Origin: Candidatus Caccoplasma merdavium
GTDB taxonomy: Bacteria > Bacteroidota > Bacteroidia > Bacteroidales > UBA11471
Direction: 5' to 3'
Assembly (NCBI GenBank): GCA_018715595.1
Contig: DVLI01000019.1
Location: forward strand, 62,001 to 126,000
DNA: 64,000 nucleotides
In this document: positions 3,443-22,842 of the stretch, piece by piece
Layout of the letters: every line of letters begins with the position of its first letter
Numbering within the stretch: the first letter of the stretch is position 1
Program-made: the position numbers and the translations under genes
The notes under the pieces: model-generated
What the model was told of the DNA's origin: nothing
Seen by the model: the letters and a program-made list of their open reading frames with translations, nothing else
Database searches by the model: none

Positions 3443-4558
3443 TTAGAGGGTTATTTCTTTATAGTCGGTAACATCGGTAACGGCCGAGGCTTTCAGGTAG
3501 GTCGTGGATATATTATTCCCAGCCGAGTCGTTTGTAGCTTTTTGAGAGTTTGTTACTGTAACGGATCCATCACCACCCACTGTTATATGATTACCACTCT
3601 TTACCCCTCCCAGCTTCGAAGAAGTGGCAACGGGGAGGCTGTAATTATTTGCGTTTGTTTCGATACCGTTGAGTTTGTCCTTGTCGGAGGCCGACATTAA
3701 GCCGGATACAGACGTTGTTGCGGCAGAGGCAATGAAATTGCTTGTATATACCCACGAACCTGTATCATCATCGGCATATATATAATAAAGGCGGCGGTTT
3801 GAGGCCACAAATATACAGGCCACACTTCCCGTCGTCGGGTCTTCAACAACAGAAATAGGAGCGTACCCATATTCGTCTTTCGCTATGTGTAATAGCCCGT
3901 CGCCAACGCTGATGCCACTCATAAACCCGTTGAGATTCTGCAACGTATCTCCCGAAAGAGTGTATTCGTGAACACGTATTCCGGCAAGGCCTTTTGAGAG
4001 TAGTGTCTGCAAGGAGACATTCGACATATCCGTTTTGGCCAGAGAACTGAGGGTCACTCCCGAATCCTTAGCCGTTTTATTGCTTCCGGCCGAAGTCAGC
4101 ACACGGTCCGCAGCCACGGCATTCGACGACATCGTTACGGCATTGGCCGTCCCCTGCTGTACCTTCCCGTCGGCATAACTCTTCGCCGCGGCAAGCGTGT
4201 CGGCCAGCAGCCCCGTGAGCGACTCCGTGTCGGTGATGCCCGCCAGGAACGACTCTATCTCCTTCCAGCTGTCGATGACACCCGCCGACGCCCCCGCATC
4301 ATTCAGGAACGCGTTTACCTTGTCGACGAACCCGTTCAGCTCCGACAGGTACATGTCCAGCGACACGCCCTCGCCCAGCGATGACTGCAGGTCGCCCATC
4401 GCCAAGTCAAGATGCTCGCGGTCACCGTTCGACAGCACCCCGAGCAATTGGTCCATGAACGACGCCAGCGTGAAGCCGTTCACGTCCACCACCGCCTCCG
4501 GTATCGTCGCCGGATAGACGGTACTCCCGTTCTCTTTCAGTTTCTTGATTTTTGCCAT
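3443..4558 (-). CDS. Tail fibre-like protein with shared N-terminal module
   Basis: A 371-residue protein starting MAKIKKLKENGSTVYPAT. The N-terminal half is helical and low in hydrophobics (residues ~30-130). The C-terminal half contains repeated short segments such as TTSVSGLMSASDKDKLNGIE and SKLGGVKSGNHITVGGDGSV, common in trimeric phage fibres and pyocin-like fibres of gut bacteria. It ends in DYKEITL; the gene before it ends in DYKEI, a second sign of module shuffling. It lies downstream of the collar protein in the tail operon. Specific receptor unknown. Confidence 0.65.
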   Translation of the reverse strand: MAKIKKLKENGSTVYPATIPEAVVDVNGFTLASFMDQLLGVLSNGDREHLDLAMGDLQSSLGEGVSLDMYLSELNGFVDKVNAFLNDAGASAGVIDSWKEIESFLAGITDTESLTGLLADTLAAAKSYADGKVQQGTANAVTMSSNAVAADRVLTSAGSNKTAKDSGVTLSSLAKTDMSNVSLQTLLSKGLAGIRVHEYTLSGDTLQNLNGFMSGISVGDGLLHIAKDEYGYAPISVVEDPTTGSVACIFVASNRRLYYIYADDDTGSWVYTSNFIASAATTSVSGLMSASDKDKLNGIETNANNYSLPVATSSKLGGVKSGNHITVGGDGSVTVTNSQKATNDSAGNNISTTYLKASAVTDVTDYKEITL

Positions 4559-10258: not shown

Positions 10259-12231
10259 TATTGTGCCGTTTTTGCCATTTGTAAAACCCGGATAAATAGG
10301 CTCTCCATGTCCCGCTCCATGTTTTCCCGATTGTCGTCGTAGCCGCCTTCGTAAACGATACGTTCGACCATGTTCCCGATAGAGATGTTGATGGTCGTGT
10401 TCCGTGTCCCGCCCGTGGCGACGGCTTCGGTGGCGTTTTTGGCCACCTCCCCGCCCGTAGGGTTGATTCCGCTTTCCGTTTCCGACCCGCCGAGTCCGGG
10501 TATGGACGGGGAAGATATGCCCAGTTTGGCCCCGAATCCCGAAACGATGTCCGACAAAGACTTTTCCGAATTCCATGACATATCGATGCCGGCGAGCGAC
10601 CGGCCGGCATTCTTCAAATGGTCGGCCACACGTTGCGCTCCTGCAGTAATGGCCTGTTGCCGGGCTTCCACGTCGGCACCGATGGCAGCTATGGCCGCCC
10701 GGTTTTCCGCGCTGTTTCCCAAGCCTACCGCCTCTTTGAATTCGTACCAGCCCAACTTTATTTTGTCGAGCCCGATCATGATGCCGTTCACAAGGGTGGA
10801 GAAATAGAGCTTTACCCCGTCGACGAATGCGTAGAAGGTGTATTTCATGAATCCGATGACACCTTCCCAAAGGGAACCCCACCCCTCGATTTTATAACAG
10901 AGGTAGGCGATGACGGCAATAAGAGCCACCACACCGGCAATGATCCATGTCGTGGGGGAAGCCCACATGGAAGCGTTCAATGCCGTTTGCGCCGCCGTCC
11001 ACGCCCATTTGGCCGTGGTAACTATACCCGCCCATAAGGCGGCCAGTTTGGCCCGGGCAATGACGACCCCCATCGTTGCGGCCATTATTCCCAACAAGGC
11101 CGTAAGTATAGTTACGGCTGTGTTCCCCCCGGAAAGCAGGTCGAACCAGCGTCTGAAAGCAGACACGCAACCTGTTACACCCTTATGTATCCAAGACAAA
11201 AGACCGGCGGTGTAGTCGATAAGTCGGGAGAAAACGGCAAATACCGGATTGATGAATGGCTCGATGATATCATACAGTTTCCAAAGCAGCATGACGGTGT
11301 TGTCCAACAAGGTAGACCATCTCCCGGACTTTGAACTGCCGAGACGTTCGGTCATGTTGTAAAACAGCCCGCCCGCAGAGGTAGCCGAAATGAAGGCGTC
11401 TCGGACCATTTCTGCCGATATTTCCCCCTTGCTCATTTCATCTTTCAACACGGCCATCGACTTGCCGGTCGTCCTTGATATTTCATTCAGGGGGTTGAAA
11501 CCTGCGTTAATCATCTGCAGCAGGTCTTGACCCATGAGTTTGCCGGTGGAGGTCATTTGGGAAAAAGCCAGTGTCAGGGAGTTCATCTTTTCCCGGTCGC
11601 CCATGGCTATATCCCCCAACATCTTGATATTTGGCATGACGCGGTCTGCAGCGATACCGAAGGAGAGCATCATTTTGGCATTTTCCTGCAAATCCGCCGC
11701 CATGTAGGGTGTGGCCGCCCCGTATTGCTGGAGGTCGGAGACCAACCGCCCGCCGGCTTCTTTCGAGCCGAGCAGCACTTCGAAGGATATCTGTGTCTTT
11801 TCCCGTTCAAAACCTTTCTTCAAAGCCGCCACTCCTGCCGTTCCGGCCAGTACGATGGGGTTGGTGATGGCCGAGGCGAACGGCAGGCTACCGAATGCTT
11901 CGGAAAAAGCCGTCTTCAAACGGCCGCCTGTCGTACTCTCCAACCGGCGCAACTGCCTTTCGAGCGATTGTATTTCCCGGTTGGTGGTGCGTATCGCTTC
12001 GATGTTTCCGGCCGGTATCCACTCCCGCTCGGCACGCAGGGCGGCAATACGTCCCGTCAGCGAACCGATGCTCACGCCGAAGTCCTGCATCGTGCGGTCG
12101 GCTTGTACGACCTGCCGTTGCACCCGGCTCCACACCGCCAGTTGCCGGTCGTTGGCAATGCCTATGCGCGAGAGCTTGCCCGAGATTTTATCTTGTAGGG
12201 AGAGGGTATATTCAACGATATTGCCTGCCAT
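10258..12231 (-). CDS. Tail tape measure protein
   Basis: A 657-residue protein. Residues 1-90 are helical/coiled coil (VQADRTMQDFGVSIGSLTGRI and similar). Residues ~115-290 carry the TP901-type tape measure core (FEVLLGSKEAGGRLVSDLQQYGAATPYMAADLQ, MLGDIAMGDREKMNSLTLAFSQM, DLLQMINAGFNPL). A hydrophobic middle (~370-470) has several membrane-like helices. The length fits a short contractile tail of roughly 95 nm by the usual 1.5 Angstrom per residue rule. The gene follows the chaperone pair by 11 bp, the invariant synteny for tape measures. Confidence 0.88.
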   Translation of the reverse strand: MAGNIVEYTLSLQDKISGKLSRIGIANDRQLAVWSRVQRQVVQADRTMQDFGVSIGSLTGRIAALRAEREWIPAGNIEAIRTTNREIQSLERQLRRLESTTGGRLKTAFSEAFGSLPFASAITNPIVLAGTAGVAALKKGFEREKTQISFEVLLGSKEAGGRLVSDLQQYGAATPYMAADLQENAKMMLSFGIAADRVMPNIKMLGDIAMGDREKMNSLTLAFSQMTSTGKLMGQDLLQMINAGFNPLNEISRTTGKSMAVLKDEMSKGEISAEMVRDAFISATSAGGLFYNMTERLGSSKSGRWSTLLDNTVMLLWKLYDIIEPFINPVFAVFSRLIDYTAGLLSWIHKGVTGCVSAFRRWFDLLSGGNTAVTILTALLGIMAATMGVVIARAKLAALWAGIVTTAKWAWTAAQTALNASMWASPTTWIIAGVVALIAVIAYLCYKIEGWGSLWEGVIGFMKYTFYAFVDGVKLYFSTLVNGIMIGLDKIKLGWYEFKEAVGLGNSAENRAAIAAIGADVEARQQAITAGAQRVADHLKNAGRSLAGIDMSWNSEKSLSDIVSGFGAKLGISSPSIPGLGGSETESGINPTGGEVAKNATEAVATGGTRNTTINISIGNMVERIVYEGGYDDNRENMERDMESLFIRVLQMAKTAQ

Positions 12232-16937: not shown

Positions 16938-16954
16938 CTTTCAAAAATGGTTTG

Positions 16955-17026
16955 TGGCGGGAGCGGGATTCGAACCCGCGACTTCGAGGTAATGGGCCTC
17001 GCGAGCTACCTCTGCTCTATCCCGCT
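16955..17026 (-). tRNA. tRNA-Met-like (CAT) with abnormal anticodon loop
   Basis: Folds as a complete cloverleaf of 72 nt without encoded CCA: acceptor 17026-17020 / 16962-16956 with an A1-C72 mismatch; D stem GAGC/GCTC with a 7 nt loop containing GG; anticodon stem CGAGG/CCTCG with loop CCCATTA; variable region of 5; T arm GCGGG/CCCGC with TTCGAAT. The central loop triplet is CAT. Position 33 is C rather than the near-universal U, and position 37 is U rather than a purine, both unusual for a working tRNA. It is transcribed in the direction of the capsid operon and sits in its leader. It may be a decayed tRNA or a tRNA-like regulatory element. Confidence 0.75.
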
Positions 17027-20838: not shown

Positions 20839-22137
20839 TTGAAGTCCACCCTTGACGACCTCTATTTCAACGGTTCTTTAACGGCGTTGGAAGAGTGTTT
20901 GAAAGAGTTCGGGCAGTCGGTGGCGGGAATGTTCCCTCTGGCGGACGGGGAGATGTTCGGCAGGATCATCGGGGAGATTGCGGACGATTTCGATGCGGCC
21001 GTCAACAAACGCCTGCTCGACATATACGCGGGCAACCTGCTCGGAGGCGTCCGTGGCGTTTTCGGGGATACCGGGTACGGAAGCCGCTATTTCAGCCTTG
21101 TAAACCGGCTGGAAGCCAACGCGGCCAGGTTCGCGGCTTACAAGGCTTACCATGCCACGGAACAGGTCAAGAGGCAACTGACGGCCCGCGTGTCGAAAGA
21201 AGAGGCCCTGAAAAGGGCCGAAGGGGCTTTGCGGGCGTTCAACAGGTACCAGGCCGCGGAATACAACACGGCCGTGGCACGCTGCCGGACGGCCAGGCAA
21301 TGGACCGACTTCAACCGGGAAGGACATGCGGACATTTTTCCGAATATCCGTTGGTTGCCGAGCCGGAGCGCCGAAAGGCGTACGCAGCATGTCCCTTACT
21401 ATAACCGCGTATGGGCGAAGACCGACCCGTTCTGGCTGGAAAACCAGCCCGGCAACGAATGGAACTGCAAGTGCGACTGGGAGGAAACCGCCGATGACGT
21501 GGACCACGACGGGGTGAAGGTTACACCCCCGCCGGCGGGCCTCTCCGGAAATCCTGGCATCACCGGGGAGATCTTCTCGGAAAAGTCGATATATTTTACG
21601 GCCAACGGGCACGACCGGGTAGGCAGGGGGATATTGGAACTGGGCGAAGGCGGTTTCTTGGGCAAAGGGAAAATCGATGCGGTGGAGGTGCTGTCGCACG
21701 TGTTGCACGAGCCGGGCGAAATCGCCGGGAACATGGAGGTCGCTACCCTGTTTTGCCGGCATAACAAAGGGGTAAGGCGTATAAAACTGCTGCCCAATGT
21801 GGTAAAAGAGGATGCCGGCCTGCGGCCCCGGTTCTACCCCAAAGGCATGACACCGCGCGGGGCGAATAAAAATGCCGATGCCGTCATCGAATGGGACAAC
21901 GGCGACAAGTGGGTCGTCGACTTCAAGTGCATGCAGGGAAACGGGGCGAAACTCAAAGAACGCCTATGCGACGCCTACGAGCAGGCCGACTATGCCGTCG
22001 TGAAGATATGCGGGGAAATAAAAGAGATTCAAAAAGTAATCGAAACGGCCGATCGGTTCATGAAAGGGCATCATCAGTTCAAAGGGTTGATTGTCTATGA
22101 TAATTCGGACAGGGAAATCTTTCGGATAATAAAATAG
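20839..22137 (+). CDS. Minor head protein (Mu gpF-like) with C-terminal BECR-type nuclease-like domain
   Basis: A 432-residue protein with a TTG start (no ATG in frame nearby; the next is at about residue 31). Residues ~1-230 are the Mu gpF / SPP1 gp7 minor head module: KAYHATEQVKRQL, ARQWTDFNREGHADIFPNIRW, and the terminal HVPYYNRVWAKTDPFWLENQPGNEWNCKCDW motif. Residues ~240-432 are an added domain with RIKLLPNVVKEDAGLRPRF, NADAVIEWDNGDKWVVDFK and LCDAYEQADYAVVKI, which resembles the barnase/EndoU/colicin E5-D/RelE-like (BECR) nuclease tails known from phage head proteins and contact-dependent toxins. Nuclease activity is inferred. Confidence 0.72.
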   Translation: MKSTLDDLYFNGSLTALEECLKEFGQSVAGMFPLADGEMFGRIIGEIADDFDAAVNKRLLDIYAGNLLGGVRGVFGDTGYGSRYFSLVNRLEANAARFAAYKAYHATEQVKRQLTARVSKEEALKRAEGALRAFNRYQAAEYNTAVARCRTARQWTDFNREGHADIFPNIRWLPSRSAERRTQHVPYYNRVWAKTDPFWLENQPGNEWNCKCDWEETADDVDHDGVKVTPPPAGLSGNPGITGEIFSEKSIYFTANGHDRVGRGILELGEGGFLGKGKIDAVEVLSHVLHEPGEIAGNMEVATLFCRHNKGVRRIKLLPNVVKEDAGLRPRFYPKGMTPRGANKNADAVIEWDNGDKWVVDFKCMQGNGAKLKERLCDAYEQADYAVVKICGEIKEIQKVIETADRFMKGHHQFKGLIVYDNSDREIFRIIK

Positions 22138-22200
22138 GCGGCATGGTTGCCGCCTATGAACCCCACTACTGTCCACCCAACGGGTCGCCAAGGATTCTTT
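22134..22200 (-). ncRNA. Tandem small RNA 1 (about 64 nt)
   Basis: Minus-strand unit. The promoter lies at 22202-22233, and the transcript should start near 22197. Helix P1 pairs GAATCC with GGGTTC, and an inner hairpin ACCC-GTT-GGGT is followed by GGACA. The terminator is a 10 bp stem (22134-22143 / 22148-22157, loop TGGT) followed by TTTTATT on the minus strand. Helices P1 and the inner hairpin recur with compensatory base changes in the neighbouring unit, which argues for a selected RNA structure. The terminator stem overlaps the end of the gpF-like gene on the other strand. Confidence 0.6.
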
Positions 22201-22201
22201 G

Positions 22202-22233
22202 CAAATGTAGTAAATAATTTCTCTATAAACAAA
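22202..22233 (-). promoter_or_regulatory. Promoter of small RNA 1
   Basis: On the minus strand: TTTG (22233-22230), 20 nt spacer, TACATTTG (22209-22202). Exact fit to the Bacteroidetes consensus. The TTTG overlaps the terminator U-tract of small RNA 2. Confidence 0.65.
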
Positions 22234-22301
22234 CAAAGAGGCGTTCCGCCTCTTTGCCCAACCCAAGTGTCCCAGCCAGCGGCTCGATCGCGAGTTGTTT
22301 C
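22234..22301 (-). ncRNA. Tandem small RNA 2 (about 65 nt)
   Basis: Second copy, 101 bp from the first when measured between -7 boxes. Predicted start near 22298. Helix P1 pairs CAACTC with GGGTTG; the inner hairpin is AGCC-GCT-GGCT, followed by GGGACA. The terminator is a 10 bp stem (22234-22243 / 22247-22256, 3 nt loop) followed by a T-rich tail. Primary sequence has diverged from unit 1 while both helices are kept. No start codon with an ORF of more than a few residues is present. Confidence 0.6.
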
Positions 22302-22302
22302 G

Positions 22303-22332
22303 CAAATATAGTGATAATTTCTTACAAACAAA
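22303..22332 (-). promoter_or_regulatory. Promoter of small RNA 2
   Basis: On the minus strand: TTTG (22332-22329), 18 nt spacer, TATATTTG (22310-22303). It lies just before the plus-strand gpG-like start, so the two transcripts diverge from here. Confidence 0.6.
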
Positions 22333-22338
22333 TATTTT

Positions 22339-22842
22339 ATGGCAAAAATGACTCCCGGACAATTCAAAGCGGAAATAGAAAGGCTGCGTGAGATGTCGCC
22401 CGACTTTATGGCCCGTATAGCCCCGTTGGTGGCGGCGAATACGGCGGTTGCGGTCTTTAAAAACAACTTCCGAACCGAGAGCTTCGACGGGGTGAAGTGG
22501 AAAGAGGTACAACGACGCGACGGGCATTCTCCGGCTTATCGGTATGCGGCAAAGTACCACCCGGCAAGGACGACGCGGAACATATTGACCGGAGACACCG
22601 GTGACCTGGGCCGTTCCATCGAGGTGAAGGAGGTGGGGGAAGGGCGGGCTACCGTATGGACTTCCCCACAGGAATTCGGCAGTAAGGAGCCTTACGGGGC
22701 GGTTCATAACGAAGGCTTGAAAGCGGGACGGGGTGCCGGATTCATCATGCCCCGTCGCCAGTTTATGGGAGACACCCCCAATTTGCGGGGGAAAACGGTG
22801 AAAGAACTCGGGAAAGCATTGGACCGGCTCTTCAAAAAATAA
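22339..22842 (+). CDS. Phage virion morphogenesis protein (Mu gpG-like)
   Basis: A 167-residue protein. The pattern MAKMTPGQFKAEIERLREMSPDF, VFKNNFRTESFDGVKWKEVQRRDG, ARTTRNILTGDTGDLGRSI and the C-terminal GFIMPRRQFMGDTP followed by a helix is the signature of the Mu gpG / phage virion morphogenesis family (tail completion). It is separated from the gpF-like gene by the small RNA pair. Convergent with the next gene, with a shared bidirectional terminator. Confidence 0.78.
   Translation: MAKMTPGQFKAEIERLREMSPDFMARIAPLVAANTAVAVFKNNFRTESFDGVKWKEVQRRDGHSPAYRYAAKYHPARTTRNILTGDTGDLGRSIEVKEVGEGRATVWTSPQEFGSKEPYGAVHNEGLKAGRGAGFIMPRRQFMGDTPNLRGKTVKELGKALDRLFKK

Follow-up and report, generated by a model that had tools for sequence, protein, structure and literature searches.

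The window, a 64,000-nucleotide stretch of a contig from Candidatus Caccoplasma merdavium, carries a Mu-like Bacteroidales prophage with Portal_Mu, Gp36 and terminase. Directly behind the portal gene lies a gene for a gpF-like minor head protein of the MuF type (20839..22137, plus strand; PHROG 220, 1.5e-9). Pfam Phage_Mu_F matched this protein at E 0.1 only, and its assignment to the MuF type uses the PHROG 220 match together with its position directly behind Portal_Mu. The C-terminal part of gpF is a toxin-like domain with a predicted PD-(D/E)XK nuclease fold (D...VDFK; 21760..22134, plus strand), matched by Pfam CdiA_C at E 0.003, below the cut-off. A gpG-like tail-completion gene (22339..22842, plus strand; PF05069 Phage_tail_S, PHROG 26) forms the far border of the slot behind gpF and is divergent from the RNA units described below. 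Elsewhere in the window, a tRNA-Met (CAT) gene lies at about 16954-17026 (minus strand), ~0.6-0.7 kb before the terminase large-subunit gene, and is similarly placed in the relatives L166 (8291-8364), L169 (8288-8360) and L185 (8276-8349), in each case on the minus strand.

Two antisense RNA units behind gpF

An earlier note on this DNA had described two tandem small RNA genes on the minus strand of the slot. Direct reading confirmed both, each made up of a folded core between its promoter and its terminator. Unit A (22228..22302, ends approximate, minus strand) consists of a helix P1 (CAACTC/GGGTTG), an inner hairpin (AGCC/GGCT) and a terminator-like 12-bp hairpin, and is preceded by the promoter TTTG-N18-TATATTTG (22303..22332, minus strand). 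Unit B (22130..22201, ends approximate, minus strand) follows the promoter TTTG-N20-TACATTTG (22202..22233, minus strand) and has P1 GAATCC/GGGTTC, an inner hairpin ACCC/GGGT and a 10-bp terminator hairpin; this terminator, with its T-rich tail (22157-22134), extends to the gpF stop codon. Both promoters were read directly from the sequence. The units are spaced ~100 bp apart, with a core of ~40 nt in each, and the host genome contains 215 matches to the Bacteroidota promoter pattern versus 62 to a reversed control.

Folding of units A and B beat that of dinucleotide shuffles (z -3.3 and -3.7), with at most 1 of 200 shuffles as good. Between the two units, P1 differs by one double change (C-G to G-C) and two one-sided changes through G-U, and the inner hairpin by one double change. 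The claim that both helices are kept by paired changes was correct, though two copies are suggestive at most: paired changes between them are thin evidence by themselves, and relatives supply the strong evidence.

A DNA search with both units, covering 60 relatives and a phage collection, matched the window alone, and searches of viral contigs with gpG and the gpF tail found no relatives; the closest gpF tail to that of the window was 38% identical. Matches to a loose core pattern derived from the two units were mostly due to chance. At the Rfam gathering cut-off, the window gave only tRNA-Met, leaving units A and B unmatched, and 20 related loci gave no match; permissive thresholds returned chance-level matches only. 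No tRNA likeness was visible in the window's own RNA class.

Recurrence of the slot and its link to the gpF tail

Relatives were collected using terminase and portal and scanned for a promoter, a hairpin and a T-run, with Bacteroidota-type promoters only. The scan of 190 loci yielded 91 units. Of these, 53 were minus-strand units at 0.6-3.5 kb behind the portal, the majority at 1.4-1.65 kb and just behind gpF. Their sequences mostly could not be aligned with those of the window. The earlier note would have taken a lack of further homologues with the same helices as refuting its claim, and for the wider class this refutation did not materialize: dozens of related phages have the slot, and three families show covarying helices, although no close homologue of the window's own RNAs was found. 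Tandem pairs of slot units also occur at L141 and L231/L233; speculatively, such pairs might broaden the range of toxin variants neutralized.

The C-terminal part of gpF is exchangeable, with several unrelated tails on similar gpF proteins. Tail types comprised CdiA_C/PD-(D/E)XK-like domains, LPD3 and similar small domains, metallopeptidase-like, papain-like (Gln_amidase, 2e-7) and GNAT domains, and gpFs with none. We treated as nuclease-type those defined by protein-similarity clusters, backed by Pfam and two structure models, after removing GNAT-like members and L046 by hand. A uniform test for the promoter (TAnnTTTG 20-125 nt behind the gpF stop, antisense strand) was positive at 92/93 nuclease-type gpFs, 1/27 gpFs with other toxin types and 0/16 without an extension, counts for which p-values express association and not independent events, as these are related phages and the set includes some contigs twice. 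On the sense strand, 2 of the 93 nuclease-type genes had such a promoter.

The sole negative among the nuclease-type loci was L087, where the promoter is farther from the stop because a tRNA-Tyr gene occupies the slot. This tRNA-Tyr (GTA) gene is complete (3951-4025, minus strand) and lies antisense behind gpF, right after the promoter. The gpF slot of L187 (~11056-11132, minus strand) holds an RNA that resembles a tRNA and has D-arm and T-arm motifs; ARAGORN makes no call for it, and its match to tRNA-Sec is weak (E 0.72). L255 had no match among phage records.

RNA class goes with toxin domain. In a comparison of 78 loci, similarity between RNAs correlated with C-terminal similarity (weakly over all pairs, at 0.08, yet a value reached by 0/500 permutations) and showed no correlation with portal similarity. 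Where portals were unlike, a C-terminal domain was common to 17/17 pairs with clearly similar RNAs versus 44/2005 other pairs. A search of viral contigs with the RNA motif TTTG-N-GATTCTGCGGATTC alone recovered the slots of several phages, including L200/L211, whose gpF tail, read by eye from the DNA, is KCPDLNIGNSFYEFES; the remaining matches were unrelated or coding sequence.

Beside most other toxin types, the slot contains a short antisense protein gene. A conserved antisense protein of 72-78 aa accompanies metallopeptidase-like tails in 10/14 cases, and one of 74-83 aa accompanies all four papain-like tails (promoter visible in three); the corresponding proteins measure 48-66 aa beside GNAT-like tails and 80-95 aa beside C2 tails. 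This is the layout expected for immunity genes, and excerpts of published work describe MuF toxins adjoined by small immunity protein ORFs (PMC5576092, PMC11699363). At the window and other nuclease-type tails, no small immunity protein gene was found behind gpF, the slot being made up of RNA units.

The hankyphage p00 has a MuF tail that is papain-like by reading of its translation, and behind a ATACTTTTG promoter an antisense ORF (BK010646 11542-11841; L326 1043-1342, plus strand) overlaps the 3' end of the MuF gene. This ORF is thus a candidate for an immunity gene, in a phage that has been well studied; an excerpt of the hankyphage RNA-seq paper mentions neither small RNAs nor the MuF gene. 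The conserved antisense family beside metallopeptidase-like tails (L012, L014, L016, L017, L114, L127, L166, L169, L185 and L186) has the signature CExCxHFxxGxxCxAFDxIP and is a candidate immunity protein for them.

Covarying RNA families and predicted toxin folds

RNAs linked to LPD3 tails combine an outer stem with an inner hairpin, whose 7-nt loop is UUGUAGU in most and UUGCANN in some; the loop is 8 nt long in L182, L241, L244 and L246, which were excluded from the count. The 7-nt loop reads as U33, G34, Y35 and A36, as in tRNA-Tyr or tRNA-Cys. The stem of these RNAs shows two-sided changes in 5/7 pairs, with a covariation score of 0.44 versus 0.18 when shuffled and 0.17 at best when slid. 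Across 16 whole RNAs, 14 of the 17 predicted pairs carry double changes, and two RNA families beside CdiA_C-like tails covary likewise. The covarying pairs sit in hairpins other than the terminator. Selection on RNA structure, claimed earlier for the window units, is backed in these three related families by covariation far above the shuffled and slid controls.

A search of 393 Bacteroidales genomes with a covariance model of the LPD3 RNAs gave five matches. Three of them (G065, G390 and G222) are on the antisense strand where an LPD3 domain ends, a domain that was found separately by protein profile. In G222 (L331, C18:209930-210329), the LPD3 gene encodes ~176 aa and is not fused to a capsid protein, and the anticodon-like RNA is antisense at its 3' end. 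G153 has an LPD3-type RNA behind a remnant that reads YSISDQESLINNLN. In G277 (L329, C114:5383-5437), two tandem anticodon-like hairpins have GCA loops and no LPD3 gene was detected; their sequence marks them as a possible orphan immunity RNA.

Structure modelling of LPD3 (pLDDT 92) suggests a colicin E5/RelE (BECR RNase) fold, with the CDI toxin 7m5f (Z 5.8), colicin E5 3ao9 (Z 5.2) and BrnT leading at Z 5.2-5.8, followed by MqsR and RelE, all of the BECR RNase group. For the window gpF tail, the AlphaFold2 model (pLDDT 92.5) suggests a PD-(D/E)XK nuclease fold: in VIA-align it matched PaqCI (Z 6.4) and CdiA-CT Bp1026b (4g6v, Z 6.1), although proteins unrelated to these scored about as high. 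The Z values of both models are modest and speak to fold, not to activity. One D is invariant in the gpF-tail alignment, and the window tail has VDFK. Foldseek against the PDB returned no match below E 0.001 for either model.

Alternatives and proposed function

We consider it likely that units A and B encode immunity RNAs (antitoxins) against the nuclease-like toxin domain of gpF, a MuF polymorphic toxin. Judged from sequence, the earlier suggestion that these RNAs may target the 20839-22137 protein at its C-terminal domain fits best.

Short, independently transcribed phage RNAs are known, and a trans-acting regulatory or counter-defence RNA, pairing with mRNA or mimicking a CRISPR repeat, could be located here by chance. 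Its presence depends on the gpF tail, however, with the promoter at 92/93 nuclease-type gpFs versus 1/43 others, and RNA similarity tracks the gpF tail and not the phage backbone; we regard this account as unlikely. About as unlikely is type I-like antisense control, in which the RNA would base-pair to the convergent gpF mRNA at its 3' end and lower its translation or stability. The units are indeed convergent with gpF and unit B reaches the stop codon, so that any gpF transcript that reads through must be complementary to them; plain pairing requires no conserved fold, however, whereas the helices covary and the loops persist. It also leaves unexplained why RNA class tracks toxin domain, why protein genes lie beside other toxin types and why RNA hairpins occur without a toxin gene.

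A packaging or structural RNA that acts with the portal or minor head protein, like the pRNA of phi29, would suit the location in the packaging and head region, and pRNAs too keep their structure while their sequence varies. We hold this to be highly improbable: despite common packaging genes, the RNA is absent from 16/16 phages without a gpF extension and from nearly all with other toxin tails, and the same RNA occurs at an unfused LPD3 gene outside this phage context. Least probable, and close to negligible, is that nothing more lies between these two late genes than terminators and sequences that resemble promoters by chance. One would expect gpF to be followed by a terminator, and the promoter motif is AT-rich and loosely defined, but the antisense promoter occurs at 92/93 nuclease-type genes against 2/93 on the sense strand, and covariation is found in hairpins that are not terminators.

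If the units are immunity RNAs, each would be transcribed from its own Bacteroidota promoter, opposite to the late genes, and could therefore be made in the lysogen. The RNA would fold into a compact hairpin and bind the nuclease domain as a substrate mimic, so that the bound domain would stay inactive in the virion-producing cell, and a recipient cell without the RNA would be exposed to the toxin. Transcription, binding, inhibition, tRNA as the target and virion delivery are steps that we infer, and the window's own RNAs would presumably act like the better-sampled families. The LPD3-linked RNA looks like a decoy of an anticodon arm, a reading on which the fold and loop evidence agree. For the window class, the decoy idea rests on analogy because these RNAs have no visible tRNA likeness and no close homologue; by that analogy, they too may be tRNA decoys.

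On our best reading, the proposed system works like type III toxin-antitoxin systems (ToxIN, CptIN, TenpIN), with a different layout and toxin family. Both place a structured RNA gene beside a nuclease gene, the nuclease here being predicted from fold, and in both, if this reading is right, a structured RNA neutralizes a nuclease protein. Type III toxins belong to the ToxN/CptN/TenpN families, whereas those here are LPD3/BECR-like or PD-(D/E)XK-like and mostly capsid-fused; Pfam scans of the tails found no ToxN-type family, and gave CdiA_C (weak) or LPD3 instead. In type III, short tandem repeats arrayed upstream of the toxin gene, and transcribed with it, form the antitoxin. Here, by contrast, the RNA is encoded behind the toxin gene and antisense to it, from a promoter of its own, in a single or two diverged copies.

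Among colicin E5 and other BECR tRNases (CdiA-CT EC3006, Kp342), the predicted LPD3 structure resembles colicin E5 and 7m5f, and immunity factors there are proteins, unlike the RNA here. Colicin E5 cleaves tRNAs that have G/Q34-U35, tRNA-Tyr among them; most LPD3-linked RNAs have U33-G34-U35-A36. The CdiA-CT of Burkholderia pseudomallei 1026b is a PD-(D/E)XK tRNase (PMC9086364) whose immunity factor is the protein CdiI, unlike the window RNA units; the model of the window gpF tail resembles its fold at a modest score (4g6v, Z 6.1). According to excerpts on the MuF polymorphic toxins of temperate phages (PMC5576092) and Bacteroides Bxa (PMC11699363), these share with our locus a MuF capsid protein behind the portal, an exchangeable C-terminal toxin domain and an adjoining immunity gene, which encodes a small protein there and, putatively, a structured RNA beside nuclease tails here. 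The toxin part of gpF fits the MuF polymorphic toxin family; the immunity part does not. RNA immunity is not mentioned in those excerpts, and a wider literature search found none; in the excerpts of the literature examined, polymorphic-toxin immunity is protein-based.

With less assurance than for the window itself, we lean towards a class of RNA immunity genes for capsid-borne nuclease toxins, in which some RNAs would copy the piece of tRNA that is attacked, and in which unfused toxin and RNA pairs and toxin-less RNAs occur elsewhere in bacterial genomes, possibly to defend against toxins of this kind. A promoter and hairpin behind gpF would provide a simple marker for finding further pairs, and LPD3, a domain of unknown function (PMC5512222), would gain a possible function. 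If this is true, many Bacteroidota phages use small RNAs as immunity, chosen by toxin chemistry, and the RNA sequence would reveal the toxin target, with the LPD3-linked RNAs predicting that tRNA-Tyr or tRNA-Cys is cut at its anticodon loop.
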